34,591 bases of DNA, taken from Maribacter sp. (GTDB lineage: Bacteria; Bacteroidota; Bacteroidia; Flavobacteriales; Flavobacteriaceae). Below, piece by piece: positions 14,698 to 34,591 of this stretch. Position 1 is the first letter of the stretch. Each line of letters begins with the position of its first letter. The DNA is taken from positions 1 through 34,591 of the forward strand of contig JAGLKG010000147.1 in assembly GCA_023141835.1 (NCBI GenBank). Reading direction: 5' to 3'. The notes beneath the pieces are model-generated. The model did no database searches. It worked only from the letters and a program-made list of their open reading frames with translations, and was not told the origin of the DNA. Position numbers and translations under genes: made by a program.

Positions 14698-16053
14698 ATG
14701 AAGAAGCTATTGTTATCATCTATAGCATTTGTTTTTTTACTCACAAGTTGTGGGTCCAAAACAAAAGGAGAACTAGTCGGGGCCCAAGGAAAAAAATGGC
14801 ATCCAGAGAAACCTTATGGAATGGAATTGATCCCACGGGGGTCTTTCATTATGGGTAAAAGTGAGGAAGACCAAGCCAAAGTTCTTAATGCACCGACCAA
14901 GACCGTTACCGTACGTTCCTTTTACATGGATGACACCGAGATTACAAATAGCGAATATCGCCAATTTGTTGAATGGGTAAAGGATTCAATCACGAGAACA
15001 AGATTGGCAATCTTGGCCGATGAATTGGGATTGGGGCCAGAAGATGGTGGTGTTGGAGAATATGCGTTTAAGGATGCCGATACAACTAAAATATCGGTAT
15101 ACGATAAGTACATGTTGGACAATTATGCAGGGATGGGAGAGGATTACAATGAAGGTCGTGCTTTGAGTAAAGATGAAGAATTAGTTTGGGATACTTCCGA
15201 GTATCCGGATGAATACTATGCTGAGGTTATGGACTCTTTGTATATCCCTGAAGAGGAATCATATAATGGTCAAAGAACAGTTGATGTAACAAGACTCAAG
15301 TATAAATATAGCTGGATGGATATCGAAGCTGCTGCCCGTTCAAGAAATGGTGACAGGAAAGATTTTATCAGACAGGAGGAATTGGAGATCTATCCTGATA
15401 CAACGGTTTGGATCAGGGATTTTGAATATTCCTATAATGAGCCAATGCACAATGATTATTTCTGGCATGATGCTTATAGTGATTATCCAGTAGTGGGTAT
15501 TTCTTGGAAGCAGGCCAAGGCATTCTGTAATTGGAGAACAAAGTTTAAAAATGATGATCAGAAAAGTAAAGGAAAACAATTTGTAAATGGATTCAGGTTA
15601 CCTACTGAAGCTGAATGGGAGTATGCTGCTAGAGGGGGTATCGAAAGTGGTACCTATCCATGGGGTGGTCCTTATGTAATTAGCGATACAGGTTGTTTTA
15701 TGGCAAACTTTAAACCTCAGCGCGGAGACTATGCAGCGGATCAGGCGCTATATACTGTAGAAGCCAAAGCGTATGAACCTAATGATTTCAATTTATATAA
15801 TATGGCAGGGAACGTTTCAGAGTGGACAAATTCCAGTTACGATCCAAATTCTTATGACTATGCATCAACAATGAACCCTAATGCTGGTGACGGTAGCAAC
15901 TCAAGAAAAGTCATCAGAGGTGGGTCATGGAAAGACGTCGCTTACTTCCTACAAGTAAGTACCAGAGATTATGAATACAGTGATTCTGCTCGTAGCTATG
16001 TAGGGTTTAGAACCGTACAGGATTATATGGGCGAGGAAGATTCAACACAATAG
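14698..16053 (+). CDS. gldK: gliding motility / T9SS lipoprotein GldK
   Basis: A 451-residue outer-membrane lipoprotein (signal with LLTSC lipobox, Cys18). With GldN it forms the periplasmic ring of the Type IX secretion system and is needed for gliding. From about residue 40 to the end it has a formylglycine-generating-enzyme (SUMF1) fold: GMELIPRGSFIMG, DDTEITNSEYRQFV, GFRLPTEAEWEYAARGG, NLYNMAGNVSEWTNSSY and VIRGGSWKDV...VGFRTV. A large insertion (about 100-245) rich in acidic and Tyr residues is typical of GldK. The FGE catalytic cysteines are absent after GGSW, so it is structural, not enzymatic. First gene of gldKLMN. Confidence 0.97.
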   Translation: MKKLLLSSIAFVFLLTSCGSKTKGELVGAQGKKWHPEKPYGMELIPRGSFIMGKSEEDQAKVLNAPTKTVTVRSFYMDDTEITNSEYRQFVEWVKDSITRTRLAILADELGLGPEDGGVGEYAFKDADTTKISVYDKYMLDNYAGMGEDYNEGRALSKDEELVWDTSEYPDEYYAEVMDSLYIPEEESYNGQRTVDVTRLKYKYSWMDIEAAARSRNGDRKDFIRQEELEIYPDTTVWIRDFEYSYNEPMHNDYFWHDAYSDYPVVGISWKQAKAFCNWRTKFKNDDQKSKGKQFVNGFRLPTEAEWEYAARGGIESGTYPWGGPYVISDTGCFMANFKPQRGDYAADQALYTVEAKAYEPNDFNLYNMAGNVSEWTNSSYDPNSYDYASTMNPNAGDGSNSRKVIRGGSWKDVAYFLQVSTRDYEYSDSARSYVGFRTVQDYMGEEDSTQ

Positions 16054-16079
16054 AAAAATAAAAGTAAATCATAAATACA

Positions 16080-16099
16080 TCTCGATGAAGTATCGGGGA
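16080..16099. other. weak hairpin between gldK and gldL
   Basis: TCTCGAT (16080-16086) pairs with ATCGGGG (16092-16098) around GAAGT, with two G-U pairs in RNA. It lies in the 97-bp gldK-gldL spacer. No U-tract follows. It may be a remnant of an intergenic repeat or an mRNA processing element. Confidence 0.3.
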
Positions 16100-16150
16100 C
16101 AATCAAAATTTAACCAAATACTTATATTAACATAAATTAAATTTAAAATT

Positions 16151-16801
16151 ATGGCACAATCAAAATCAACAAAAAAATTATTTAACATGGCCTATGGTCT
16201 TGGAGCATCAGTAGTAATTATTGGTGCATTGTTCAAGATCCTTCACTGGGAATTTGGACCTCTAACGGGTGGTCTATTATTAGCGGTAGGTCTTATTACA
16301 GAAGCACTTATTTTTGCAATTAGTGCATTTGAACCCGTAGATGATGAATACGATTGGTCTTTGGTATATCCTGAATTAGGTGGAGGTATGTCCATCGGAA
16401 AAGATGGTGAAATGGCTGAATTGAAGGAAACTGAAACTTCATTGTCAAAAAAATTGGATAACCTTCTTGAAGAAGCTGGTATTGATGCCAATTTAATGGA
16501 AAGTTTAGGGTCCAGTATCAAGAATTTCGAAGGTGCAGCAAAAGGTATCGCCCCTACAATGGATGCCATGGAGTCTACCAAGAAATATTCTGATGAGATG
16601 GTACAAGCCGCGGCTCAAATGGAGTCTTTGAACAGTCTTTACAAAGTTCAATTGGAAAGTGCAAGCAAACAAGCTTCTGTTAATGAAGAAGTAGTACAAA
16701 ATGCCAGTGCTCTTAAAGACCAAATGGAATCTTTGGCTACGAACCTTTCTTCTTTAAATGGAGTTTACGGTGGTATGTTAACTGCAATGAGCAAAAACTA
16801 A
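16151..16801 (+). CDS. gldL: T9SS/gliding motor protein GldL
   Basis: A 216-residue inner-membrane protein that forms, with GldM, the proton-driven motor powering T9SS and gliding. It has two N-terminal membrane helices (about 13-34 and 38-60) and a cytoplasmic helical tail rich in Ser, Glu and Gln. The charged residues inside the helices that the literature assigns to proton coupling are recognisable: Lys29 and His32 in helix 1 (LFKILHW), and Glu51 and Glu61 in helix 2 (ITEALIF and FEPVDDEYDW), with Tyr15 nearby. The GALFKILHWEFGPLTGG block is diagnostic. Second gene of the operon. Confidence 0.97.
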   Translation: MAQSKSTKKLFNMAYGLGASVVIIGALFKILHWEFGPLTGGLLLAVGLITEALIFAISAFEPVDDEYDWSLVYPELGGGMSIGKDGEMAELKETETSLSKKLDNLLEEAGIDANLMESLGSSIKNFEGAAKGIAPTMDAMESTKKYSDEMVQAAAQMESLNSLYKVQLESASKQASVNEEVVQNASALKDQMESLATNLSSLNGVYGGMLTAMSKN

Positions 16802-16855
16802 TTAGAGCATTAGTCCAAACCCAAATCAATAATCAATAATATCTAATTAGAAAAC

Positions 16856-18415
16856 ATGGCAGGAGGTAAACAAACACCACGTCAAAAGATGATCAACCTA
16901 ATGTACTTGATCTTCATCGCGATGCTGGCCTTAAATATGAGTAAAGAAGTTTTAGCCGCATTCGGTATCATGAATGAAAAGCTAGAGATTTCAAACACAA
17001 AGACTACCGAAAGTAATGATGCATTCTTGGTGAGTCTAGAAACTAAAGCACGTGAAGATGCTGAGAAGTACGGAGAAATGTATCAGAATGCACAGGAGAT
17101 AAAGTCAATGTCTCAAGAGTATTTTGACTATCTCGAAGGTATCAAAAAAGGGATGACCGAAAATCTTGAAGACCCTAAGGATTATGCCCGTATGGATAAC
17201 GCAGATTTTTTAGATCAAATGTTATTTCAAGGAGATAATCTTTCCAAAGCTGGAACGGATTTCATGAAAAGACTTACAGATTACCGTACGAAAGTTGTAG
17301 CTATTGCGCCAGCGACTTTAAAGGAAGCTGTTAATTCTCGTTTTCAAACAGGAGACGAAAATGGCAAAGTTGAAAAAAGAGATGGGACAAAGCAAGATTG
17401 GATCAACTATCATTATGAAGGCTATCCTTTAGTAGCTTCTTTGGCCAAATTAACGGCGCTTCAAGCTGATGTAAAAGCAACTGAAGAGGATGCTTTGAAA
17501 TCAATGTTGCAAGGTGAGCTGACCAGTCAAGTCTCATTGAAGAATTTTGCAACTTCGCTTGATGCTTCAAGATCTGCTTTCTATTCTGGAGAAAAATATG
17601 ATGGTAAGATTATCATTAGCAAGACCGATAACTCATCCACCCCTGTACGGGCAGAATTGACTTTGGATGGCAGAAAACTAACCGAAGGTAAGGATTATGC
17701 ACTTGAGGCAGGAGGGGTAAAGATGTTAATTAGCGCTGGTGCCGCAGGAGATCATACCATTGCAGGAGAACTTGTCTTTATGCAAGATGGTAAGGAAATC
17801 CCCGTAACTGTTGATAATTCATTTGCTACCATTACTAAACCGGGTGCTGCTTTAATTGCGGCTGATAAGATGAACGTTGTTTATCGGGGAGTTGCTAACC
17901 CAATGAGTATCTCTATACCAGGTATACCTAATAACAAGGTTAGTGCTAGAGCACCAGGCTTGACAAGACGTAGTGGTAGTAGTTATATCATGAATCCTGG
18001 TAAAGGTAGAACCGTTACTATTTCCGCGTCAGGTACATTACCAGATGGTAAGCCTGTAGGTTCTAAACTTGAATTCAGAATTAAAGATATTCCAAGACCT
18101 TCAGGGTCTATAAGAGGCGAATCGGGTAGTGCTAAAATGCCAAGAAAAAACTTGGAGATTGCTACTGTTGGCGCTTTGTTGGAAGACTTTGATTTTGATT
18201 TAAATCTTAAAGTAAGTGGATTTAAATTCAAAGTGCCTGGTCAGCCTACCGTAAGTGTAAAAGGGAATAAGCTAGACACTAGGGCGAAATCAGCCTTAAG
18301 AAGAGCCAAGCGTGGTGACGCAGTTCAGATATTTGATGTTAATGCATTTATTACGAACAATAAAAGCTATAAACTTAAGAAAGTATCTCCTGTAATCATA
18401 GAGATAACAAACTAA
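16856..18415 (+). CDS. gldM: T9SS/gliding motor protein GldM
   Basis: A 519-residue protein with the strongly conserved start GGKQTPRQKMINLMYLIF, whose single membrane helix (about 13-33) threads the GldL ring. The periplasmic remainder consists of a helical domain (about 40-220) and three beta-rich domains (about 225-519) that reach the GldKN ring at the outer membrane. The last part (KLEFRIKDIPRPSGSIRGES and the C-terminal basic KSALRRAKRGDAVQIFDV) matches the GldM C-terminus. Length is normal. It lies 54 bp after gldL and 57 bp before gldN, with a stable hairpin in the latter gap. Confidence 0.97.
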   Translation: MAGGKQTPRQKMINLMYLIFIAMLALNMSKEVLAAFGIMNEKLEISNTKTTESNDAFLVSLETKAREDAEKYGEMYQNAQEIKSMSQEYFDYLEGIKKGMTENLEDPKDYARMDNADFLDQMLFQGDNLSKAGTDFMKRLTDYRTKVVAIAPATLKEAVNSRFQTGDENGKVEKRDGTKQDWINYHYEGYPLVASLAKLTALQADVKATEEDALKSMLQGELTSQVSLKNFATSLDASRSAFYSGEKYDGKIIISKTDNSSTPVRAELTLDGRKLTEGKDYALEAGGVKMLISAGAAGDHTIAGELVFMQDGKEIPVTVDNSFATITKPGAALIAADKMNVVYRGVANPMSISIPGIPNNKVSARAPGLTRRSGSSYIMNPGKGRTVTISASGTLPDGKPVGSKLEFRIKDIPRPSGSIRGESGSAKMPRKNLEIATVGALLEDFDFDLNLKVSGFKFKVPGQPTVSVKGNKLDTRAKSALRRAKRGDAVQIFDVNAFITNNKSYKLKKVSPVIIEITN

Positions 18416-18427
18416 TACAAATTGATG

Positions 18428-18453
18428 ACCGGGTGGCCTGAAGGTTACCCGGT
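18428..18453 (+). other. stable intercistronic hairpin between gldM and gldN
   Basis: ACCGGGTGGCC (18428-18438), loop TGAA, GGTTACCCGGT (18443-18453): an 11-bp stem containing two G-U pairs, with a GC-rich base. It starts 12 bp after the gldM stop and ends 19 bp before the gldN ATG. No run of T follows, so full termination is unlikely; it may tune gldN relative to gldM by partial attenuation or protection from exonucleases. Confidence 0.55.
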
Positions 18454-18472
18454 AATTTAAATTGAAGTAAAC

Positions 18473-19375
18473 ATGAATTGGAAGAATGTTTTATTAATCG
18501 GAGCTGTTAGCCTACTGCCTGCATCAATAATGGCCCAAGCAAACATATTGAATGCTAAAAAGCCACAGGAAATTGGTGTAAGGACAGAAGCGCAAAAGGC
18601 CTTGGACAATGACACTCCTTTAGCCTATGGTTATGTGGATGATAGAGATGTTCTTTGGTCCAAAACCATATGGGAGACCATTGATCTAGATGAGCGTGTT
18701 AACTTTCCACTGTATTATCCTATAGATACGATAGATATCAGTGCTGATAGGAGGTCGTTGTATGATGTTCTTATTAAGAACATTAAAAATGGTATCCTTG
18801 AGGATGTTTACGTAGACTCTTATTTTACTGAAAAAAGAGTGTTCAGTGATTTGGCGGCGACTTTGCGAAAGGTTGATACCACCGACATGGGATACGAACA
18901 GATAAATGCCGGGGAAGAGCTCTCTGCTGAATATGTGAACCAGAGAGATTTGACTGCTGCTGATATTGAAGAGTACCGTATTAAAGGAATGTGGTATTTT
19001 GACAAGCGACAGGGAGAATTAAAATACCGCTTATTGGGTATTGCTCCTGTAGCTCCCGATGTTAACTTTATTGATGATGAATCCATGGATCCTGCCGATG
19101 CCTTGGTAGAGCTTTTCTGGGTATGGTACCCGGGTGCCAGGAAGATTTTGCACGATGCCAAAGTTTTTAACCAACGCAATTCGGCGCAACCCATAACCTT
19201 TGATATGTTGTTGAACGCAAGAAGGTTCAATGGTGTCATCTATAGAGAGGACAACGTCTACGGAGACCGTGAGATCAACGATTATATTGCTGATAATGCC
19301 TTGTTCCAATTGCTTGAGTCCAAGCGAATCAAAGAGGTCATAAGGGATAGGGAACAAGATATGTGGTCCTACTAA
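18473..19375 (+). CDS. gldN: T9SS/gliding periplasmic ring protein GldN
   Basis: A 300-residue exported protein (signal peptide to about residue 21, SIMAQA cleavage region) that pairs with GldK in the periplasmic ring of T9SS. Diagnostic blocks: DRDVLWSKTIWETIDLDERVNFPLYYP near the N-terminus, EYRIKGMWYFDKRQGELKYRLLGIAP in the middle, and ELFWVWYPGARKILH toward the C-terminus. It is the last gene of gldKLMN and is followed by a strong terminator. Confidence 0.97.
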   Translation: MNWKNVLLIGAVSLLPASIMAQANILNAKKPQEIGVRTEAQKALDNDTPLAYGYVDDRDVLWSKTIWETIDLDERVNFPLYYPIDTIDISADRRSLYDVLIKNIKNGILEDVYVDSYFTEKRVFSDLAATLRKVDTTDMGYEQINAGEELSAEYVNQRDLTAADIEEYRIKGMWYFDKRQGELKYRLLGIAPVAPDVNFIDDESMDPADALVELFWVWYPGARKILHDAKVFNQRNSAQPITFDMLLNARRFNGVIYREDNVYGDREINDYIADNALFQLLESKRIKEVIRDREQDMWSY

Positions 19376-24119: not shown

Positions 24120-24581
24120 GTGAAAAATCAAAAGGATGTTATCGATTTTGAAAACTCAATAGGAGCCTGGTTGGGGCGCACTGTGAAGATGACCGATTAC
24201 TTTCTTCAGGAGGCCTTTCAATCAGAAAAGATTGATGTGAACAAGGAACAAATGGTCGTTTTAAAAAAGCTGCACGATCAAGATGGCATGAGTCAAAACG
24301 AACTAGCCTGCTTAACCTATCGCGATAAATCATCCATGGCCCGTTTACTTTCCAAAATGGAGTCCAAGAACTATGTGTTAAGAAGGCAAAGTGAAAAGGA
24401 CAAACGCAGCAATAAGGTGTTCTTAACGGTTCAGGGAAGAGCTGTTTTTAAAGAATTGATTCCAGTAGTAAAAAATGTGTTGCTTACCATTGAAAATGGT
24501 ATAGGACATTCAGAAAAGCAGTCACTGATTGAAATTTTGAAAAAAGTTCAACTAAATTTTAAAAAACAAACGAATTATTAA
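24120..24581 (+). CDS. MarR family transcriptional regulator
   Basis: A 153-residue winged-helix regulator. The start is GTG at 24120; an overlapping ATG at 24118 runs straight into a stop, and the next internal ATG would remove a conserved first helix (FENSIGAWLGRTVKMTDYF). The DNA-binding region spans about 35-105: QMVVLKKL, then MSQNELACLTYRDKSSMARLLSKMESKNYVLRR and the wing SEKDKRSNKVFLTVQG with the typical DKR turn. The C-terminal helices form the dimer interface. It lies 7 bp before the efflux genes and behind a perfect palindrome, so it probably represses the operon and is released by a small-molecule inducer. Confidence 0.93.
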   Translation: MKNQKDVIDFENSIGAWLGRTVKMTDYFLQEAFQSEKIDVNKEQMVVLKKLHDQDGMSQNELACLTYRDKSSMARLLSKMESKNYVLRRQSEKDKRSNKVFLTVQGRAVFKELIPVVKNVLLTIENGIGHSEKQSLIEILKKVQLNFKKQTNY

Positions 24582-24588
24582 TTACCAG

Positions 24589-25734
24589 ATGAGAAAGATT
24601 ATTTTAAGCATTTTGGGAGTACTGATCATAGTTGCATCAGTTTTTTTCGCAAAAATGATTGTGGATAGTAAGAGTAATGTAAGACCCATTGCAAAAAAAG
24701 TGGTTAAGACCGTTTTTGCTGAAAAAGCAAAAAATGGAACCGTGCCGATTATTGTACCTGCCAATGGTAATTTGATTGCCAAAAGACGCATGGAACTCTA
24801 TGCTGAGGTTCAAGGGGTATTCAAAAGGGGCAATAAACTTTTTAGAACTGGGCAAGCATACCTAAAAGGCGAGGCCATTATAAGAATAGACGCTTCTGAA
24901 TACACCGCCAGTGTACAATCAGCGAAAAGTAACCTGTACAATCAACTTACCTCGATAATGCCTGATTTGCGTTTGGATTATCCAGAGATATTTCCCAAAT
25001 GGCAAACCTATCTTAGTGGGTTTGATATGGGTAAAAGTACCCCGACCCTTCCTGAAATGAGTTCAGATAAAGAGAAATTCTTTATAACAGGACGTGGCAT
25101 TCTAACAACTTACTATAATGTGAAAAATTTGGAGCAGCGACTTTCAAAATATAGAATTACAGCACCTTTTAGTGGAGTACTTACAGATGCATTGGTTACT
25201 GAAGGTACCTTGATAAGATCAGGTCAAAAATTAGGAGAGTTTATAAATACCGATGTATATGAGTTAGAGGTTTCGGTAAGTAAAACATTTAGCGATTTAC
25301 TTAAGGTAGGTGAGCAAGTAAAATTGAAAAATCTAAACGGGACAAGGACTTATACTGGTACGGTCGCTAGAATCAACGGAAGTGTGGATCAAGCCACCCA
25401 GACCATCAAGGCATTTATAGAAGTGAAAGATAGCAACCTAAGAGAAGGGATGTACCTAGAAGCAAGTTTGAACGCAAGAGAGGAAACGAATGCCATTGAA
25501 ATAGATAGAAACCTTTTACTTGAAGATGATAAAATTTTTGTAGTCCGTGATTCACTTCTAGATGTTATCGATGTTAGGCCTGTTTATTTTTCTAATAAAA
25601 AAGTGGTGCTTAAAGAGGTGCCTGAGGAGACCATGATTCTGACAAGACCTATGATGGGAGCTTATTCAGGTATGCTTGTAAATGTCTACCAGGGAATCGA
25701 AAATAAAGATGAACCAAACAAAGCGAAGAACTAA
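24589..25734 (+). CDS. RND efflux periplasmic adaptor (membrane fusion protein)
   Basis: A 381-residue HlyD/AcrA-type adaptor that links the inner-membrane RND pump to the outer-membrane channel. Residues about 4-23 form an N-terminal membrane anchor or signal without a lipobox. The lipoyl and hairpin region spans about 60-200 (VPANGNLIAKRRMELYAEVQG near 56-76; second half RITAPFSGVLTDALVTEGTLI). The hairpin is short, with AKSNLYNQLTSIMPDL as one strand. The beta-barrel domain (ELEVSVSKTFSDLLKVGEQV onward) and the membrane-proximal domain follow. Its stop codon TAA overlaps the ATG of the pump gene by one base, which suggests coupled translation. Confidence 0.93.
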   Translation: MRKIILSILGVLIIVASVFFAKMIVDSKSNVRPIAKKVVKTVFAEKAKNGTVPIIVPANGNLIAKRRMELYAEVQGVFKRGNKLFRTGQAYLKGEAIIRIDASEYTASVQSAKSNLYNQLTSIMPDLRLDYPEIFPKWQTYLSGFDMGKSTPTLPEMSSDKEKFFITGRGILTTYYNVKNLEQRLSKYRITAPFSGVLTDALVTEGTLIRSGQKLGEFINTDVYELEVSVSKTFSDLLKVGEQVKLKNLNGTRTYTGTVARINGSVDQATQTIKAFIEVKDSNLREGMYLEASLNAREETNAIEIDRNLLLEDDKIFVVRDSLLDVIDVRPVYFSNKKVVLKEVPEETMILTRPMMGAYSGMLVNVYQGIENKDEPNKAKN

Positions 25735-28700
25735 TGAGAAATGTAATCGCATACTTCATAAAGTACCATGTAACGGTTAATGTTATTATAATAGCATTTG
25801 CAGTTTTTGGTATAATGGGGGCATTTTCATTAAAGTCCTCATTTTTCCCCCTGAACGATTCAAAGAATATTTCAATACTTATAACTTATCCGGGAGCATC
25901 TCCGCAAGAAGTTGAAGAGGGTATTGTTCTGAAAATTGAGGACAATCTTAAGGGGTTAGAGGGTGTTGATCGTGTAACTTCGACTTCTAGGGAGAATAGT
26001 GGGAGCATAAGAGTTGAAATTGAGAAAGGTAGGGATGTAGATTTTATGTTGCTACAAGTAAAGAACGCCGTTGATAGAGTGCCTACATTCCCTACAGGAA
26101 TGGAGCCATTAGTGGTTTCAAAATTAGAAGTGATACGCCAAACTATCAGCTTTGCTATAAGTGGCGAAGATATTCCTTTGGTCACTTTGAAACAGATAGG
26201 ACGTCAAATTGAGAATGACATTAGGGCAATTGACGGTATTTCCCAAATTACGATTACTGGCTATCCTCAGGAGGAAATTGAAGTGGCTGTGAATGAAAAT
26301 AGTCTTTTAGCTTATGACCTCACTTTCAGCGATGTTTCTTTGGCTGTGAGAAATGCCAATATTTTGGTGACGGGAGGTAATATTAAGACCGATGCAGAAG
26401 AATATTTAATAAGAGCAAAAAACAGATCGTATTATGGAGACGAATTGTCAAATATTATCATTAAGGCCGATCCAAATGGTCAAACTGTTCGTTTAAGTGA
26501 TGTTGCCGTCGTAAGAGATAGGTTTTCTGAAAGCCCAAATGCGTCATATTTCGATGGAAACATTTCGGTCAACATATCCATATCAAGTACAAATACAGAA
26601 GATTTGGTTGGCTCGGCAGAAAAGGTCAAAAGCTACATTACTGATTTTAATCAAAAGTTCAATAATGTACAACTGAATGTGGTGAGGGATTTATCAAAAA
26701 CGTTGAATCAAAGAACAGAATTGCTCACAAAGAATGCCATTATGGGAATGATATTGGTATTGATATTCCTTTCTCTTTTCTTGAATACACGCTTGGCTTT
26801 TTGGGTAGCCTTTGGATTGCCAATTGCGTTTTTGGGGATGTTCATTTTTGCGGGGTTCTTTGATGTGACCATAAATATTCTTTCTCTATTTGGGATGATT
26901 ATCGTTATTGGAATCTTGGTGGATGATGGTATTGTAATTGCCGAGAACATATATCAACATTATGAAAAAGGAAAGTCGCCCATACAAGCTGCTATAGATG
27001 GTACAATGGAAGTAATTCCACCGATTGTATCAGCAATTATTACAACTATTTTGGCTTTCTCTATTTTATTGTTTTTAGATGGAAGAATTGGGGATTTTTT
27101 TGGTGAGGTTTCTGTTATTGTAATTCTCACATTGGCTGTATCACTTGTAGAGGCATTAATAATTTTGCCAGCACATTTGGCACATTCAAAGGCACTTAAG
27201 CCTAATGTAAAAAAGGAAAAAACAGGAATAGCCAAGGCATTTGCTCAACTTAGGATAATAAATAAGCTGGGCGATGATTTTATGAAATGGATGAGGGATA
27301 ATCTTTATAGCCCAACCCTCAAATTTGTGTTGCAGTATAAATTATTGTCATTCGGAATTTTTTCTATGCTGTTGATTCTCACTTTTGGTTCGATAGGAGG
27401 TGGAATCATCAGAACCTCTTTCTTTCCTAGAGTGGCAAGTGATAGAGTCGTTGTTGAATTATTAATGCCTAACGGTACCAACGAAAAAGTAACCGATTCA
27501 ATAATTTCGTTCATTGAAGATAAGGCCGAAATTGTAAATCAGGAGATGACAGAAAAGTATTTACAAGGTTCAAATAAAATGTTATTTGAAAATATGATTA
27601 TGAAAGTTGGCCCGGGTTCCTCGACGGCCACGTTGACCATGAATCTTTTACCTGGTGAAGAACGCCCCGATGCTGTTCGTTCGGATATGGTATCCAATCG
27701 ACTAAGGGAATTGGTAGGGCCAGTATTTGGCATTGAAAGCTTAATTTATGGTTCTGGGGGTAATTTTGGTGGCGATCCGGTATCGGTTTCTTTATTAGGA
27801 AATAATATAGAAGAACTCAAGGCAGCTAAACAAGAGTTGAAAACTGCTATGTTGAACAATTCTGCTCTAAAGGATGTTGCAGACAATGACCCTGAAGGTA
27901 TTAAGGAGATTAGATTGGTATTAAAGGAAAATGCCTATTTATTGGGATTGGATTTGAGAGGAATAATGAATCAGGTTCGCGCAGGTTTTTTTGGAAACCA
28001 AGCGCAACGTTTCCAAAGAGGACAAGATGAAATTCGAGTGTGGGTAAGATATGATCGTGAAAACAGATCATCTATTTCAGACTTGGATGAAATGAGGATA
28101 GTTACTCCTAATGGTAATAGAGTTCCTTTAAAGGAAATAGTGGAATATTCTATTGAAAGAGGTGATGTGGCCATAAACCATTTGAAAGGTCAAAGGGAAA
28201 TACAGGTTTCTTCTGACCTAAAAGATGAAAAAACAACTAGTGCCACGGATATCATGCTAGAAATACAAAATGATATTATGCCACAAATTTTATCAAAGTA
28301 TCCCACGGTAACCCCGTCTTATGAAGGTCAAAATAGAGAAGCTAATAAAATGATGAAGTCTTTTAAGCCTGTTGGAATTGCGGTATTGTTATTAATTTAT
28401 TTGACCATAGCATTTACTTTCAGAAGTTTCAGCCAACCGTTGATGTTAATATTGTTAGTCCCTTTTAGTATTACAGCAGTCGCATGGGGCCACTGGATTC
28501 ATGGTTTTCCAATTAATTTTATATCATTGATGGGAATCATAGCTTTAGTGGGTGTAATGGTAAATGATGGTCTGGTCCTTGTAGGTAGATTCAATGGGAA
28601 TTTACGACAAGGTATGAATTTCGACGATGCTTTGTTCGAGGCTAGCAGGTCTAGGTTTAGAGCCATTTTCTTAACATCAATTACCACAATTGCAGGACTA

Positions 28701-29000
28701 GCACCATTGCTGCTAGAAAAGAGTAGACAAGCTCAATTTTTAAAACCTATGGCCATTTCAATCGCTTATGGCATTGGCTTTGCGACTGTTCTTACTCTGT
28801 TAATGCTGCCTATATTTCTTTCTTTCAGTAATAAAATTAAAGTTCGCTCCAAATGGTTGGCTACAGGAAATGAAATTTCAAAAGAAGAAGTAGAAAGAGC
28901 CATAAAGGAACAAAAAGAGGAATTGTCTTTAGAAGGAGAAATGACAAAGTCGATAGCTGGTTCTCATGAAAACAGGGCCACCACTTCGGAAACATATTAA
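25734..29000 (+). CDS. RND efflux transporter permease (AcrB/MdtC-like)
   Basis: A 1088-residue proton-driven inner-membrane pump with two homologous halves, each with six membrane helices and large periplasmic loops. The proton-relay helix 4 carries the Asp pair in GILVDDGIVIAENIY (about residue 390-405), and the second half has the matching GVMVNDGLVLVGRF. The porter-domain opening TYPGASPQEVEEGI is typical of the AcrB/MexB superfamily. The N-terminal half is of the branch common in Bacteroidota rather than the E. coli AcrB type, so substrates cannot be predicted; metals cannot be excluded. The C-terminal 45 residues are charged and cytoplasmic. Third gene of the marR operon. Confidence 0.96.
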   Translation: MRNVIAYFIKYHVTVNVIIIAFAVFGIMGAFSLKSSFFPLNDSKNISILITYPGASPQEVEEGIVLKIEDNLKGLEGVDRVTSTSRENSGSIRVEIEKGRDVDFMLLQVKNAVDRVPTFPTGMEPLVVSKLEVIRQTISFAISGEDIPLVTLKQIGRQIENDIRAIDGISQITITGYPQEEIEVAVNENSLLAYDLTFSDVSLAVRNANILVTGGNIKTDAEEYLIRAKNRSYYGDELSNIIIKADPNGQTVRLSDVAVVRDRFSESPNASYFDGNISVNISISSTNTEDLVGSAEKVKSYITDFNQKFNNVQLNVVRDLSKTLNQRTELLTKNAIMGMILVLIFLSLFLNTRLAFWVAFGLPIAFLGMFIFAGFFDVTINILSLFGMIIVIGILVDDGIVIAENIYQHYEKGKSPIQAAIDGTMEVIPPIVSAIITTILAFSILLFLDGRIGDFFGEVSVIVILTLAVSLVEALIILPAHLAHSKALKPNVKKEKTGIAKAFAQLRIINKLGDDFMKWMRDNLYSPTLKFVLQYKLLSFGIFSMLLILTFGSIGGGIIRTSFFPRVASDRVVVELLMPNGTNEKVTDSIISFIEDKAEIVNQEMTEKYLQGSNKMLFENMIMKVGPGSSTATLTMNLLPGEERPDAVRSDMVSNRLRELVGPVFGIESLIYGSGGNFGGDPVSVSLLGNNIEELKAAKQELKTAMLNNSALKDVADNDPEGIKEIRLVLKENAYLLGLDLRGIMNQVRAGFFGNQAQRFQRGQDEIRVWVRYDRENRSSISDLDEMRIVTPNGNRVPLKEIVEYSIERGDVAINHLKGQREIQVSSDLKDEKTTSATDIMLEIQNDIMPQILSKYPTVTPSYEGQNREANKMMKSFKPVGIAVLLLIYLTIAFTFRSFSQPLMLILLVPFSITAVAWGHWIHGFPINFISLMGIIALVGVMVNDGLVLVGRFNGNLRQGMNFDDALFEASRSRFRAIFLTSITTIAGLAPLLLEKSRQAQFLKPMAISIAYGIGFATVLTLLMLPIFLSFSNKIKVRSKWLATGNEISKEEVERAIKEQKEELSLEGEMTKSIAGSHENRATTSETY

Positions 29001-29032
29001 GAAACTCTCAAAGAATTAGAAGGTAAAACAGA

Positions 29033-30397
29033 ATGAGAAATAGACTTTTAACCCCCATATTTTTAGTATTTGTTGGTACAGTGCTTACCGGACAGGAAAA
29101 GCTACTTTCAAAAGAAGATGCCGTAAATGTAGCTTTAGAGAACAATTTTGGAATCATGGTTGCCAAAAATCAAATTCGAGTTGCAGAGAATAATGCGAGT
29201 ATACTAAACTCGGGATATTTGCCAACTTTAACAGGGACGGCAGGAGCCAATTATAACGAATTGAACAGTACCACCACGTATCCAGGGCAAATTGACAGCA
29301 ACGGTGACCCGAGGGTTGATCTGGAAATTAATGACGCAGAGTCACAGACGTATAATGCCGGACTGAACTTAAATTACACTCTTTTTGATGGAATGGGACG
29401 TTTGTATAATTACAAACGCTTAAAGGAGCAATACCAATTAAGCGAATTGCAAGCCCGGGAAACCATTGAAAATACCATACTACAATTGTTCAGTGTCTAT
29501 TATGAAGTGGCTCGGCTAACCCAAAACGAAAAAGTGTTGCGAGAGGCATTGGGGATTTCCACTCAAAGAATCAAACGAGCGGAATATTCTTTTGAATACG
29601 GGCAAAATACCAAATTAGATATCTTAAATGCACAGGTAGACGTTACCAATGACAGCATTAATTTAATGAATATGCGTCAGCTTTTGGAAAACACCAAAAG
29701 AGATCTGAATGTTATATTAAATCTGGATATTAGGGAAACTTACGAAGTAGATACCCTTATTTCTTTTATTCCTAGGTTACAATTGGTAGATTATATGTCC
29801 CAAGCCTCCCAGAATAACATTAGTCTTTTGCAAACCGATAGGAACCTGGCGATCAATGATTATGATATTAAAGTTAGTAAGTCGGGTTATTTGCCGTCCA
29901 TAGGGCTAAATGGGTCCTACGGGTGGAATTTGAACCAAAGCGCCAACTTTTCTTTTCTACCCGGTCAAATAATCCCTGGGAGCAATAGAAACAGTTTAAA
30001 TCTTGGGCTGGAAGCCCGTCTTACCTGGAATCTGTTCGATGGTGGAGGTACAACGGTACGTGTTAGAAATGCAAAAATCGCTTTTGAAAATCAAGAATTG
30101 CTCAAAGAGCAGGTAAATTTGGAAGTTAATCGTGATATTCAAAATGCGCTTGCAATCTATGAAAATCGATTAAAAATATTCTATATTCAAGAACAAAACG
30201 TTCTTACGAACCAAAATAATTTTGAGCGTTCTAGAGAGCAGTTTCAATTGGGAAGGATTACTTCGATTGAATTTAGACAGGCGCAGATAAATTTATTGAA
30301 TGCCCAGACGAATAAGAATTTAGCCAAATACGATGCTAAATTGGCGGAACTTCAGCTATTGCAGTTAACAGGGCAGTTGTTGAATGTAGAGCTATAA
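29033..30397 (+). CDS. TolC family outer-membrane efflux channel
   Basis: A 454-residue TolC/OprM-type protein with a signal peptide ending near TVLTGQ (about residue 20). It has two repeats of the OEP fold: coiled-coil segments at about 130-235 and 345-450, and beta-barrel segments near NLNYTLFDGMGRLYNYKRLKEQY and LEARLTWNLFDGGGTTVRVRN. The (T/N)LFDG signature in both repeats is typical. Without an N-terminal lipobox Cys it is anchored by the barrel only. It completes the tripartite pump with the two genes upstream (32-bp gap after the pump gene). Confidence 0.95.
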   Translation: MRNRLLTPIFLVFVGTVLTGQEKLLSKEDAVNVALENNFGIMVAKNQIRVAENNASILNSGYLPTLTGTAGANYNELNSTTTYPGQIDSNGDPRVDLEINDAESQTYNAGLNLNYTLFDGMGRLYNYKRLKEQYQLSELQARETIENTILQLFSVYYEVARLTQNEKVLREALGISTQRIKRAEYSFEYGQNTKLDILNAQVDVTNDSINLMNMRQLLENTKRDLNVILNLDIRETYEVDTLISFIPRLQLVDYMSQASQNNISLLQTDRNLAINDYDIKVSKSGYLPSIGLNGSYGWNLNQSANFSFLPGQIIPGSNRNSLNLGLEARLTWNLFDGGGTTVRVRNAKIAFENQELLKEQVNLEVNRDIQNALAIYENRLKIFYIQEQNVLTNQNNFERSREQFQLGRITSIEFRQAQINLLNAQTNKNLAKYDAKLAELQLLQLTGQLLNVEL

Positions 30398-30731: not shown

Positions 30732-31814
30732 ATGAAGATCCAGCCAAAGAAAAACCTTCAAATCCCATCTTTTATTTTAGCAATTTGTATCGCCACAACC
30801 GGATTTCTTTCCTGTAAATCATCGGTAGGTACAATAAAGCCTACAAACCCTGTCAAGGAGGTGGCCAGCGAAGTTTCAAAGGAAACACAAAATGCAGTTT
30901 CCAAAGATGGATCTAGCGAAGTGTATACAGAGACCATACCTGTGGCCAATAAATCTTTTGATATGGTGCTGATACCAGCAGGGCAGTTTGTAATGGGAAG
31001 TCCTTCGGACGAACCCAATCGAAAGGATGATGAAGGACCACAAAAAAATGTTTCTTTAGATGCCTTTTGGATGGGTAAATATGAAGTTACATGGAGCGTT
31101 TTTGAACTATTTTTTAAACAAAACCAAGAATTGTTCGAAAGCTTGGATACCGATAAACTTAGTGCAATTGATGCTATTACACGGCCAAGTCCACCTTATG
31201 AAGACCCATCGTATGGCATGGGCAAGGATGATTTCCCTGCAGTGAGTATGTCTACCTATTCAGCATTGGTATTCTGTAAGTGGTTAAGCAATATAACAGG
31301 CCATTTTTACAGGTTGCCGACTGAGGCGGAATGGGAATATGCAGCAAGAGCTGGTTCTAAGACTATGTATGAATTTGGGGCTTCGGAAGAAGAATTGGAA
31401 AAGTACGCCGTATATTACAAAAACTCCAACAGCAAGTATGCAGAAGTAGGTACCAAATTGCCCAATAAATGGGGTTTATATGATATGCACGGAAATGTAG
31501 CGGAATGGACCTTGGATCAATATAAAGCGGATGCCTATGCAAAAATGGAGGAGAAAAATCCTTGGGTGATGCCCATGGTTATCCATCCTCGGATTATCCG
31601 GGGAGGTTCTTGGGACGATGATGCCGAAAATTTGCGTTCGGCAGCAAGAAGGGCCTCTAGCGTAAAGCTGCAGAAAAGAGATCCTCAGATTCCCAAAAGT
31701 TTTTGGTGGTTTACAGATTCTAATTTTGTAGGTCTTAGACTGGTTAGCCCTAAAAATCAACCCAGTCCTGAGGAGCAAAGCAAATTCTGGCAAATGGTCC
31801 TTGATGAAGGATGA
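30732..31814 (+). CDS. SUMF1-like (formylglycine-generating enzyme family) lipoprotein
   Basis: The ATG at 30732 is preferred to the GTG one codon earlier. The 360-residue protein has a long lipoprotein signal (lipobox FLSC, Cys28), so it is envelope-anchored. The SUMF1/FGE-sulfatase domain runs from about 75 to 340: FDMVLIPAGQFVMGSPSDE, DAFWMGKYEVTWSVFE, YRLPTEAEWEYAARAGSK, GLYDMHGNVAEWTLDQY and IIRGGSWDDDAENLRSAARR. The FGE catalytic cysteines are missing, so it is probably not a sulfatase activator. It differs from GldK (this window, 14698-16053) in lacking the large acidic insertion. Its gene heads a cluster with yceI and apbE. Confidence 0.9.
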   Translation: MKIQPKKNLQIPSFILAICIATTGFLSCKSSVGTIKPTNPVKEVASEVSKETQNAVSKDGSSEVYTETIPVANKSFDMVLIPAGQFVMGSPSDEPNRKDDEGPQKNVSLDAFWMGKYEVTWSVFELFFKQNQELFESLDTDKLSAIDAITRPSPPYEDPSYGMGKDDFPAVSMSTYSALVFCKWLSNITGHFYRLPTEAEWEYAARAGSKTMYEFGASEEELEKYAVYYKNSNSKYAEVGTKLPNKWGLYDMHGNVAEWTLDQYKADAYAKMEEKNPWVMPMVIHPRIIRGGSWDDDAENLRSAARRASSVKLQKRDPQIPKSFWWFTDSNFVGLRLVSPKNQPSPEEQSKFWQMVLDEG

Positions 31815-31857
31815 TTTGGATAAAAACTTTAGTGAAGTAGGATAAACACATTATAAA

Positions 31858-32403
31858 ATGAAAAACATACTATTTACATTACTTGCATTATTTGGCATTT
31901 CCTTGGGTTTTTCCCAAGATAATTATGAACTATCCTCTGAAAGTGTTTTGACGGTAGATGGGACTTCTACCTTGACTGCTTGGTCTGTTACTGCCAATAC
32001 TTTTACAGGTGCATTGCAACTTGAAGGAAATGCCATAAAGGAAATTTCCTTCGAAGTAGAGGTAGCAAGCCTAATAAGTCCACGCGGGGCCACAATGGAT
32101 AAAAAAACACATAATGCCCTCAAAAAGGAAGAGCATCCCAAAGTGCTTTTTTCGGCTAGTGTCATAAATTTTTCTGAAGGAGATAGCCAAAATATTCCAG
32201 GCAAACTAACTATGGCTGGTGTTGAAAAAGAAGTTGTTGTCGCAACTACAATTGTGCGATCCGAAGGTAAGTTGCAAATAAAGGGAAATCAGAAAATAAC
32301 ATTGCAGGATTATGATATGGAACCGCCTACGGCAATGTTCGGTTCCATTATAGTAGGTGATGATGTCGTTATAAATTTCGATTTGTTTTTTGCAAAAAAG
32401 TAA
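31858..32403 (+). CDS. YceI family periplasmic protein
   Basis: A 181-residue protein with a signal peptide (cleavage near LGFSQ, about residue 20) and a single YceI lipocalin-like barrel domain. Typical features are the N-terminal SVLTVDGTSTLTAWSVTA, the NFxxG-like GALQLEGNAIKE strand, the ARGATMDKKTHNALKKEEHPKVLF block (seen as SPRGATMDKKTHNALKKEEH) and the terminal GDDVVINFDLFF. YceI proteins bind isoprenoid chains such as polyprenyl quinones in characterised members; its own ligand is unknown. It overlaps the next gene by 14 bases, indicating coupled translation. Confidence 0.94.
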   Translation: MKNILFTLLALFGISLGFSQDNYELSSESVLTVDGTSTLTAWSVTANTFTGALQLEGNAIKEISFEVEVASLISPRGATMDKKTHNALKKEEHPKVLFSASVINFSEGDSQNIPGKLTMAGVEKEVVVATTIVRSEGKLQIKGNQKITLQDYDMEPPTAMFGSIIVGDDVVINFDLFFAKK

Positions 32404-33439
32404 TACTCCAAAAAAGAAATTTACCCTTTCACTGAAATTAGGTCTGGGAAAGGCGCTATGTGTCTTTTTTTTACTTTTCTCCAATTTTGTTGTATATGCC
32501 CAAGTGAGATTTGAGTACAAACACCAACAAATGGGCACTCAAATTAGGTTGGTTTTCTATGCTGTGAACAAGCAAGAGGCCGATTCGGTCTCAGACTTGG
32601 TTTTCGAAAGAATTGATGGCTTAAACAATATATTAAGCGATTACATTGAAGATAGTGAACTTAATAAACTCACCAATGAAGGTATTGGGGATGTCACTGT
32701 CAGTAATGATTTGTACGCAGTTCTCAAAAAATCTGTCGAGATTGCAGAGAAAACCAATGGAGCGTTCGACATAACCGCAGGGCCATTGATTCGGCTTTGG
32801 AGGAAGTCAAGAAAATCCAGAATAAAACCTACACTTTCAGACTTGAAAGCCGCCAAGGAGAAAGTTGGGTATCAGCATATTACTTTTCCAAAGCAAAATA
32901 CAGTTCGCTTGGGAAAACAAGGATTACAATTAGATTTGGGTGGAATTGGCAAAGGCTTTGCCGCTGATGAAGTGATTAAAATCCTGTTGAAGAATGGTGT
33001 CACCTCTGCTCTAATTGATATGGGGGGGGACATTAGAGTAAGCGCCCCACCCCCTGGCAGACCATATTGGTTACTTGCTTTTTCGTATTATGATGGTAAT
33101 GGTGATGAAATAGTGCAAAAAATAAAACTTAAAAACGCCGCAGTGGCCACCTCTGGAGACGTATACCAATTTGTTGAGATTGATGGAATACGATATTCCC
33201 ATATTATAAATCCGTTGACAGGTATGGCCCTGACCACAGGTATTCAGGTAAGTGTTATTGCCGAAAATGCAACCAAGGCTGATGCATATGCTTCCGCCTT
33301 AAGTGTGATGGGTATTGAAAAGGCGAAAGAAAAAATCAAGGAAATAGCCAGTTTGAACGTCTTTTTGGTAGAGAGCATAAAAAATAATAGAAAGCAATGG
33401 CATAATCTTGAGTTCAAAAAGTTTTTGATAAATAATTAA
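32390..33439 (+). CDS. apbE: FAD:protein FMN transferase ApbE
   Basis: This enzyme attaches FMN covalently to Thr/Ser of periplasmic or membrane redox proteins. The 349-residue protein begins at TTG 32390 (no ATG is available before the signal peptide, residues about 12-38, ending VVYAQ). The ApbE fold is complete: MGTQIRLVFYAV at the start, TNGAFDITAGPLIRLWR, LQLDLGGIGKGFAADE (about 183-198), IDMGGDIRVSAPPPGRPYW, AVATSGDVYQ and SHIINPLTGMALTTGI, and ADAYASALSVMG. Overlapping yceI by 14 bases suggests translational coupling. The flavinylated target is not in the visible window; it may lie beyond the right edge. Confidence 0.96.
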   Translation: MQKSNTPKKKFTLSLKLGLGKALCVFFLLFSNFVVYAQVRFEYKHQQMGTQIRLVFYAVNKQEADSVSDLVFERIDGLNNILSDYIEDSELNKLTNEGIGDVTVSNDLYAVLKKSVEIAEKTNGAFDITAGPLIRLWRKSRKSRIKPTLSDLKAAKEKVGYQHITFPKQNTVRLGKQGLQLDLGGIGKGFAADEVIKILLKNGVTSALIDMGGDIRVSAPPPGRPYWLLAFSYYDGNGDEIVQKIKLKNAAVATSGDVYQFVEIDGIRYSHIINPLTGMALTTGIQVSVIAENATKADAYASALSVMGIEKAKEKIKEIASLNVFLVESIKNNRKQWHNLEFKKFLINN

Positions 33440-33540
33440 TTTGTTTTAATTATAACAATTGAATTGTGGCTATTTGGATATTGATGGAATTCATTAACTT
33501 TAGGCGGATTACTCAGATACATTTTCCCACCTAGCGGCCT

Positions 33541-34591
33541 ATGAAGCAAAAAGCGCTATTACTTATCATCCTCATATCTATCACGGCTCTACTTTTTTCT
33601 ATAAAAAAGGGAATTTTCAATGCTCAAAATGATAGTTCTGCCAGTATTGAATTGCCTGAAAAAGTTGATTACAATTTTCATATTAAGCCTATCCTTTCCG
33701 ATAAATGTTATACCTGTCATGGTCCAGATGCCAATAAACGTAAAGCTGGGCTGCGTATGGATATTGAGAGTTCTGCATTTTCTGAATTACCAGAAAGCCC
33801 AGGAAAATTTGCTTTAGTTGCGGGTAAACCCAATAGCAGCATAGCCTATCTAAATATGATATCGGATGATCCGGACGAAATGATGCCACCCCCCGATTCA
33901 AAACTAAAACTGAATTCTTACGAAAAACGTTTGATAAAAAAATGGATAAAGCAAGGCGGCAAGTTTCAAAAACATTGGGCGTTCATTGCTCCTTTGAAAT
34001 CGGAACCTCCAGTTATTGAAAACACAGGATGGCCCCAAAACGAGATTGATTATTTTATTCTAAAAAAAATAGAGGAGAATAATCTGGTTCCTTCAAAGAA
34101 GGCAAAGATTGAGACTTTAATACGAAGAATCAGTTTGGATCTAACGGGCCTTCCCCCCAAACCCGAGTTTGTAAAGGAGCTTGTTAAGGGTAAATCAGGC
34201 AATGTTATTAAAGAAGTTGTTGACCATTTTTTGGGAGTTCGGGCATATGGCGAGCGAATGACCCAAAATTGGCTTGATGTCGCCCGTTATGCAGATTCCC
34301 ATGGCTATCAAGATGACAGTTATCGTACCATGTGGCCATGGCGTGATTGGGTTATACATGCCTTTAATAAGAATTTGCCATACGATGAGTTTTTGGTATG
34401 GCAATTAGCAGGGGATTTACTTCCCAATGCAACAAAGGAGCAAATATTGGCAACAGGATTTAATAGGAATCACCCAATTACTCAGGAAGGTGGGGTTATT
34501 CAAGAGGAATACAGGATTAATTACGTGTTGGACAGGACTAATACATTGGGAAAGGGGATTCTTGGTCTTACCTTGGAATGTGCACGCTGTC
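33541..34591 (+). CDS. cytochrome c / DUF1549 (planctomycete-type PSD1 family) protein, 3' truncated
   Basis: The frame is open from ATG 33541 to the window end (350 codons, no stop), so the gene continues. Residues 1-22 are a hydrophobic signal or anchor. A c-type cytochrome domain (about 40-140) shows the heme motif CYTCH at 56-60 and a distal MMPPP motif at 114-118, as in PSCyt1 (PF07635). From about 165 the DUF1549 (PSCyt2) domain begins: WPQNEIDYFILKKIEENNLVP, SLDLTGLPPKPEF, WLDVARYADSHGYQDD, WPWRDWVIHAFNKNLPYDEF and NRNHPITQEGG. A DUF1553 (PSD1) domain normally follows and should lie downstream. It is probably a periplasmic or outer-membrane heme protein; biochemical role unproven. It is 101 bp after apbE. 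Confidence 0.9.
   Translation, partial: MKQKALLLIILISITALLFSIKKGIFNAQNDSSASIELPEKVDYNFHIKPILSDKCYTCHGPDANKRKAGLRMDIESSAFSELPESPGKFALVAGKPNSSIAYLNMISDDPDEMMPPPDSKLKLNSYEKRLIKKWIKQGGKFQKHWAFIAPLKSEPPVIENTGWPQNEIDYFILKKIEENNLVPSKKAKIETLIRRISLDLTGLPPKPEFVKELVKGKSGNVIKEVVDHFLGVRAYGERMTQNWLDVARYADSHGYQDDSYRTMWPWRDWVIHAFNKNLPYDEFLVWQLAGDLLPNATKEQILATGFNRNHPITQEGGVIQEEYRINYVLDRTNTLGKGILGLTLECARC

Follow-up and report, generated by a model that had tools for sequence, protein, structure and literature searches.

At the right end of a Maribacter contig, genes for a SUMF1-family lipoprotein, a YceI-like protein, an ApbE flavin transferase, and a cytochrome-like protein lie side by side. This raises the question of whether they form a single exported electron-transfer module and to which enzymes that module is connected. 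The window, namely, the whole stretch of 34,591 nucleotides analyzed here, is an entire contig (C54) of genome G000 (83% complete), and the fourth gene is cut by the contig end at position 34591. The four proteins resemble the form taken in one lineage by an undescribed but widespread route that would draw electrons from sugar-oxidizing enzymes outside the cytoplasm, by way of either a flavin-attaching enzyme or haem. The component that stays constant is SUMF1. The genes are as follows:

30732..31814, + strand, SUMF1/PvdO-like lipoprotein (Pfam PF03781, 2.8e-46)
31858..32403, + strand, YceI-like protein with a signal-peptide-like N-terminus (Pfam PF04264, 4e-13)
32390..33439, + strand, ApbE flavin transferase with a TTG start (Pfam PF02424, 3.5e-71)
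33541..34591, + strand, PSCyt1 and DUF1549 protein, cut by the contig end (Pfam PF07635, PF07583)

Open reading frames and Pfam agreed on this four-gene cluster, which had been described in an earlier annotation made from the letters of the window (the sequence-only reading). That reading missed SUMF1 as the constant element and Gfo/Idh as its usual neighbor elsewhere. The redox genes encode proteins with exported-looking N-termini, as it had proposed; all four look exported, as judged by eye from their N-termini. In SUMF1, Cys28 follows GFLSC, which we judged by eye to be a lipobox. The YceI protein scored 50.4 bits (PF04264 cut-off, 23.7). Positions 31966-31989 of the window encode STLTAWSV in YceI; H-D-W occupies that place in 33 of the 36 YceI proteins from ortholog loci.

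Two units in the genus and family

Conservation was examined in 12 genus genomes and 397 Flavobacteriaceae genomes; absences are weak in G001 and G003 (68% complete) and in G000. SUMF1-YceI-ApbE was present in ten of the 12 genus genomes (absent from G005 and G010), and SUMF1 and YceI were no more than two genes apart at all 38 ortholog loci, which bears out the conserved synteny expected previously. A cytochrome triplet encoding PSCyt/DUF1549-1553, DUF1501, and DUF2231-PSCyt1 proteins was found at four of the ten genus loci, with contig C372 (described below) counted for the window. G004 and G007 retained SUMF1-YceI-ApbE and had no DUF1501 homolog genome-wide at E<=1e-50; DUF1501 also had no match in G001, G005, and G010. 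Since the triplet is missing at six of the ten loci and DUF1501 is absent from G004 and G007, the triplet is not part of one fixed module. The single module of the sequence-only reading was rejected because the triplet is dispensable, and the cluster is two units: SUMF1-YceI-ApbE and the cytochrome triplet. Nine DUF1501 matches were present in G000, some of which were fragments at contig ends.

The SUMF1 ortholog group, defined by at least 67% identity (E falls from 1e-149 to 1.7e-105 below the group), occurred in 28 of the 397 family genomes. At the 26 family loci fetched outside the genus, YceI was always present (26/26), the triplet was complete at 22, and ApbE was present at five. The place after YceI at loci without ApbE was often taken by a protein of approximately 396 amino acids, which was an M20 peptidase in one scanned case and had no Pfam match in another; Gfo/Idh lay between SUMF1 and YceI at four of the 26 loci. 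The ApbE clade of the window was found in eight of the 397 genomes, each time at this locus, and L078 and L083 carry an ApbE of this clade at another position within the locus. ApbE belongs to the locus. Because SUMF1 and YceI are linked at all 38 loci and the ApbE clade is always found here (8/8), these linkages are more than chance.

The 14-base overlap of yceI and apbE noted previously is correct for the window, provided that TTG at 32390 is the start. With mechanically chosen starts, yceI and apbE at the nine other genus loci overlap by 11 bases (four loci), by 26, or by 65, or are separated by 1, 34, or 40 bases. Overlap is thus frequent without being constant.

The SUMF1 protein

The formylglycine-generating enzyme (FGE) is defined by a catalytic cysteine pair. 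This pair was sought in the SUMF1 sequence and is not present: cysteines occur at 19, 28, and 182 only, so that Cys182 is the single cysteine of the mature protein apart from Cys28 of the lipobox. PvdO (PDB 5hha) was the closest fold to the structure model (mean pLDDT 84.5; alignment of 47 rows) and also the best PDB sequence match. The protein remained below the curated NCBIfam cut-offs for PvdO (137.2 vs 500 bits) and GldK (116.6 vs 350 bits). An FGE function was rejected because the cysteine pair is absent and PvdO is nearest by both sequence and fold.

Partners of SUMF1 across phyla

For SUMF1 homologs outside the ortholog group, the first set of loci comprised the 80 top-scoring ones among at least 566. 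Rows of 230 bits or less were dropped from the alignment and rows below 220 bits from the locus counts, and near-identical rows were merged. Of 103 distinct non-ortholog loci, 87 have Gfo/Idh no more than two genes from SUMF1, and 28 have ApbE no more than four genes away. These loci were from Bacteroidota and from records titled Planctomycetes, Verrucomicrobia, Acidobacteria, and others, and ApbE was placed before SUMF1, after it, divergently, or beyond Gfo/Idh. A phylum draw of 335 genomes gave ApbE at 13 of 37 distinct SUMF1 loci (14/39 before merging). The chance expectation is approximately 0.4% per locus by our own arithmetic, which uses 65 ApbE in 40 genomes and assumes 3500 genes and eight places. 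The query of this draw was an ApbE-linked Pedobacter SUMF1 and may favor its kin; 40 of the 41 non-Flavobacteriaceae matches were fetched, and in one of these (L344) no SUMF1 was called by the hidden Markov model (HMM).

The window ApbE scored 240.3 bits (Pfam cut-off, 25.6) and is predicted to transfer flavin mononucleotide (FMN). It matched 13 PDB sequences of the ApbE family at 3.6e-41 to 2.3e-27, aligns with solved FMN transferases, and retains the conserved active-site motifs HIINPLTG, DMGGD, and ADAYAS. In an ApbE tree of 67 rows, the label SUMF1-linked changed twice, compared with a mean of 19.4 after shuffling (0/500 shuffles were as low); near-copies among the rows help this low count. 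Besides one broad SUMF1-linked group, the tree has linked rows on the side of the other ApbE; these include a Sphingobacteriaceae-type clade with good support and two lone rows, L183 and L346. Six near-duplicates and the doubtful rows L158_5 and L193_1 were left out, and L344 and L135 (ApbE eight genes away) were kept.

Some SUMF1 relatives bear haem. When all 103 proteins were scanned for CxxCH, 14 contained four such motifs, and Gfo/Idh lay within two genes of all 14. Their records were Bacteroidales-type or unassigned, four being titled only Bacteroidia or Bacteroidetes. L185, the sole member scanned by Pfam, matched the NapC/NirT tetraheme domain. Among four long Verrucomicrobiota SUMF1 proteins scanned, PSCyt1 was fused in L141, L142, and L160 and not in L139; L160 also has a divergent ApbE. 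ApbE linkage and haem coincided at one of the 103 loci, with ApbE only at 27, haem only at 17, and neither at 58 (p=0.02, uncorrected for descent). Redundancy between flavinylation and cytochromes is reported for other systems (PMC8238504).

Gfo/Idh in Maribacter

Gfo/Idh is not next to SUMF1 in the window. However, a search with an HMM built from 11 SUMF1-linked Gfo sequences detected partner-type Gfo/Idh in all ten locus-bearing Maribacter genomes, unlinked to the locus. The main subtype (670-679 bits) was found in eight, including a copy of 678.6 bits on C151 of G000. G006 has a contig-end fragment (250 bits) and another subtype, and G011 has only this other subtype (478 bits). In the two locus-free genomes, the best partner-type score was 127 bits in one and no match was obtained in the other. 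The chance of this co-occurrence is approximately 1 in 66, and it becomes 3 in 66 when G011 is left out (own arithmetic). The partner-type Gfo of the window genome adjoins a gene that looks, by eye, sulfatase-like in relatives. G002 has a second Gfo copy that shares 81% identity with the Gfo located at the L079 locus, and the neighbors of this copy resemble, by eye, the M20 and no-Pfam proteins at the loci of other genera.

Search for the flavin acceptor

Section 8 of PMC12052999 gives the ApbE substrate motif as D-x-x-[ST]-G-A-[ST]. At ortholog loci, [ST]GA[ST] was sought in SUMF1 (36), YceI (36), ApbE (15), DUF1549 (27), DUF1501 (25), and cytochrome (25) sequences, and the only match was in the N-terminal linker of the L091 SUMF1. 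The pattern D-x-[x]-[ST]GA[ST] was found in none of the open frames of at least 70 amino acids at L037-L045, L076-L101, and L211. Thus, the flavin target that the sequence-only reading placed beyond the right edge did not emerge. An RnfG/NqrC-like partner was also not supported: FMN_bind proteins (PF04205) occur in all 12 genus genomes, including both locus-free ones, do not track the locus, and were rejected as the target. RGAT in YceI was rejected as an acceptor because it also occurs at loci without ApbE.

A DxxSGAT pattern scan of the 12 genus genomes yielded 54 matches, and the proteins were inspected for 30. By eye, they were RnfG/NqrC-like, RnfD/NqrB-like, members of a family of 368-383 amino acids, Gfo/Idh with DGVSGAT, or chance-like (DAISGAR). 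None of the 30 tracks the locus.

A loop of SUMF1 comes near the motif:

31170..31199, + strand, SUMF1 loop D-A-I-T-R-P-S-P-P-Y (amino acids 147-156), a near-miss of D-x-x-[ST]-G-A-[ST]

DAITRPS (amino acids 147-153) does not match the substrate motif. Almost every one of the 107 homologs in the alignment has the same loop, and 13 have an exact DxxSGAT there. Residues 147-155 of the structure model had pLDDT <50, as did the short segment 321-323. Among 98 loci with the loop pattern, exact SGA[ST] was found in 0/26 ApbE-linked versus 13/72 unlinked SUMF1 proteins (p=0.018, which again takes no account of shared descent). ApbE-linked loops mostly have R-P, and some have L-P, K-P, H-P, T-P, or G-P; in two, the first Ser/Thr is replaced by Ala. 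DAITRPS was retained at loci without ApbE, and haem-bearing SUMF1 proteins also retained the loop.

Several other proteins with the motif were noted in these genomes. The family of 368-383 amino acids carries DALSGAT, DAISGAT, or DGITGAT (L268:593-1702 on G002:C94, L270:1628-2740 on G000:C261, L269, L271, and L272); two scanned members had no Pfam match, and FAD_oxidored lay beside it in the one neighborhood scanned. This family is a candidate for an unrecognized ApbE substrate. Maribacter Gfo/Idh-type proteins with DGVSGAT in the C-terminal part (L274:9750-10937, L240, L244, L245, L262, L265, and L277; Pfam was run on one) occur also in G005, which is without the window-clade ApbE. On G000:C350 (L273), three DxxSGA[ST] matches are clustered, and one of them belongs to an FMN_bind protein; the set is Rnf/Nqr-like by eye and has a matching counterpart in G006:C220.

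Genes beyond the contig edge and upstream

Contig C372 of the same genome, in reverse, opens with the last 34 bases of the window at 91% identity. It carries the remainder of DUF1549/1553, DUF1501, a DUF2231-PSCyt1-LRR protein, an SDR, and an FAH-family hydrolase in the same order as in the relative G002 (Pfam was run on the G002 copy, in which DUF1553 was assigned). Based on the 34-base match and the G002 gene order, C372 appears to adjoin the window contig. DUF1553 and DUF1501, both expected previously beyond the right edge, are encoded on C372 and in the G002 copy, and the domain order PSCyt1-DUF1549-DUF1553 with an adjacent DUF1501 was found in the window part, in G002 by Pfam, and in C372. 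An SDR follows the cluster at six of the nine other genus loci, on C372, and at 12 of the 26 family loci. DUF1549/1553 had no PDB relative at E<=1, and its predicted structure model had a pLDDT of 53.5.

Upstream of SUMF1 are the following genes:

24120..30397, + strand, putative genes for a regulator, a membrane fusion protein, an RND pump, and a TolC-like protein (open reading frames)

The genes are a conserved address of the locus and lie outside the system; RND and TolC-like homologs were upstream of SUMF1 at 12 of the 26 family loci. Farther upstream, an ordinary run of GldK-like to GldN-like genes (14698-19375) presumably encodes a type IX secretion system and gliding proteins.

An exported electron relay and its rivals

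Bacteroidota, Planctomycetota, and Verrucomicrobiota commonly possess exported Gfo/Idh enzymes. To our knowledge, there is no established answer to how NAD(P)H bound to these enzymes is reoxidized outside the cytoplasm. We consider it an even prospect that the window holds the form which an exported electron relay, shared across phyla, takes in Maribacter-type bacteria, with a non-FGE member of the SUMF1 family at its center. The gene linkage, fusions, and co-occurrence on which this relay is based were observed directly; its substrate, electron direction, and FMN-carrying protein are those that we infer. An exported Gfo/Idh, linked in most lineages and unlinked in Maribacter, would oxidize a sugar or glycoside using bound NAD(P), and the SUMF1 protein would accept its electrons and pass them on to quinone. 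Lineages would differ in the carrier used: a fused tetraheme NapC/NirT domain in Bacteroidales-type bacteria, a fused PSCyt1 in some Verrucomicrobiota, and a covalent FMN made by ApbE elsewhere. In Maribacter, ApbE and YceI would serve together, joined in some genomes by the PSCyt/DUF1501 triplet.

Several points weigh against this relay. It is read from gene data, and a canonical acceptor motif in a plausible place was found in no cluster protein. Among the 26 Flavobacteriaceae loci outside Maribacter, 21 have no ApbE, and in the next SUMF1 group of this family only one locus in 19 has it. Gfo/Idh lies within two genes of SUMF1 at only five of the 38 ortholog-group loci, and its co-occurrence in Maribacter rests on two locus-free genomes. 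The locus counts are uncorrected for shared descent.

In one rival reading, SUMF1 itself would be the ApbE substrate and would receive FMN at the last Ser/Thr of the loop D-A-[IV]-[ST]-x-P-[ST], which would then be a less strict variant of D-x-x-[ST]-G-A-[ST]. The motif spacing kept by the loop in nearly all homologs, the linkage to ApbE in many lineages, and the haem-bearing SUMF1 proteins mostly without ApbE argue for this proposal, and the low model confidence would fit a mobile loop. However, segment 321-323 is similarly low, the exact motif is confined to unlinked SUMF1 proteins, R-P predominates in the linked loops with Ala in two, and the loop persists without ApbE and together with haem. 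Furthermore, G to A or A to V changes in the known motif leave approximately 50% flavinylation according to section 8 of PMC12052999. We regard SUMF1 as the substrate as doubtful. The fuller claim is more doubtful still: that SUMF1/FGE-fold proteins are a new class of covalently flavinylated carrier with a dedicated ApbE and the motif D-A-[IV]-[ST]-x-P-[ST] that reoxidizes exported Gfo/Idh, for which fused haem substitutes in Bacteroidales-type bacteria and some Verrucomicrobiota. An alternative that we consider somewhat less unlikely is that ApbE modifies an unlinked protein, or is an FAD hydrolase supplying FMN, and merely shares an operon with SUMF1-YceI. The other DxxSGAT proteins of Maribacter genomes and a cluster without the canonical motif are in keeping with this; however, the ApbE-SUMF1 linkage recurs in varied arrangements, no fewer than two lineages of ApbE show it, and the distribution of FMN_bind proteins in the 12 genus genomes does not follow the locus.

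The chain drawn in the sequence-only reading, in which YceI would handle quinone, an unseen flavoprotein FMN, and PSCyt/DUF1549 would be the haem partner within one fixed module, now appears very improbable. It gains from the constancy of YceI beside SUMF1 at ortholog loci and from the triplet at most family loci outside Maribacter, but the triplet is dispensable, YceI is near SUMF1 at just two of the other 103 loci, and there is no acceptor motif. That SUMF1 is an FGE maturing sulfatases and the remaining genes are unrelated is scarcely credible: the Pfam FGE-sulfatase domain speaks for it, whereas the cysteine content, the PvdO matches, and neighbors that are mostly oxidoreductases across phyla speak against it.

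If the relay is correct, a SUMF1 partner wired to haem or ApbE would explain the reoxidation of NAD(P)H in exported Gfo/Idh enzymes, the PSCyt/DUF1501 proteins would gain a testable context, and orphan ApbE enzymes would gain a candidate target. According to PMC8238504, 670 genomes encode ApbE but no known substrate for it.

Comparison with known systems

In a search limited to open PMC papers, none was found that treats YceI together with ApbE and flavinylation. ApbE and formylglycine were found together only in an unrelated Methanococcus proteomics paper, and the part of the matches covered in a wider open-PMC search, mostly on human SUMF1, held no account of the system. By word search, FGE, sulfatase, and YceI are absent from the main text of PMC8238504, and sulfatase and YceI from that of PMC11334425.

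The relay resembles four described systems. BT2158, presumably of the Gfo/Idh family, is one of them. It is described as a periplasmic glycoside 3-dehydrogenase of B. theta (PMC11300592); as an exported sugar dehydrogenase in Bacteroidota, it is in keeping with the relay. The extracytosolic electron-transfer clusters associated with ApbE flavinylation (PMC8238504 and PMC11334425) similarly place ApbE in an exported redox cluster, and swapping between flavinylation and cytochromes is a further likeness (PMC8238504); in contrast, the Maribacter cluster has a SUMF1-family center and no canonical acceptor motif. PvdO and the non-FGE SUMF1 branch are the nearest match in fold and sequence. However, the window SUMF1 differs from PvdO as a lipoprotein with an extra conserved loop (a gap in the PvdO alignment), ApbE or haem partners, and a score of 137 vs 500 bits. 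PSCyt2 genes have been reported beside unknown families, with nothing known of their function, in PMC5615132. The planctomycete-specific cytochrome (PSCyt/DUF1549-DUF1553) with DUF1501 shares its domains and gene order with the triplet, whereas the Maribacter copy lies beside SUMF1-YceI and is often followed by an SDR.

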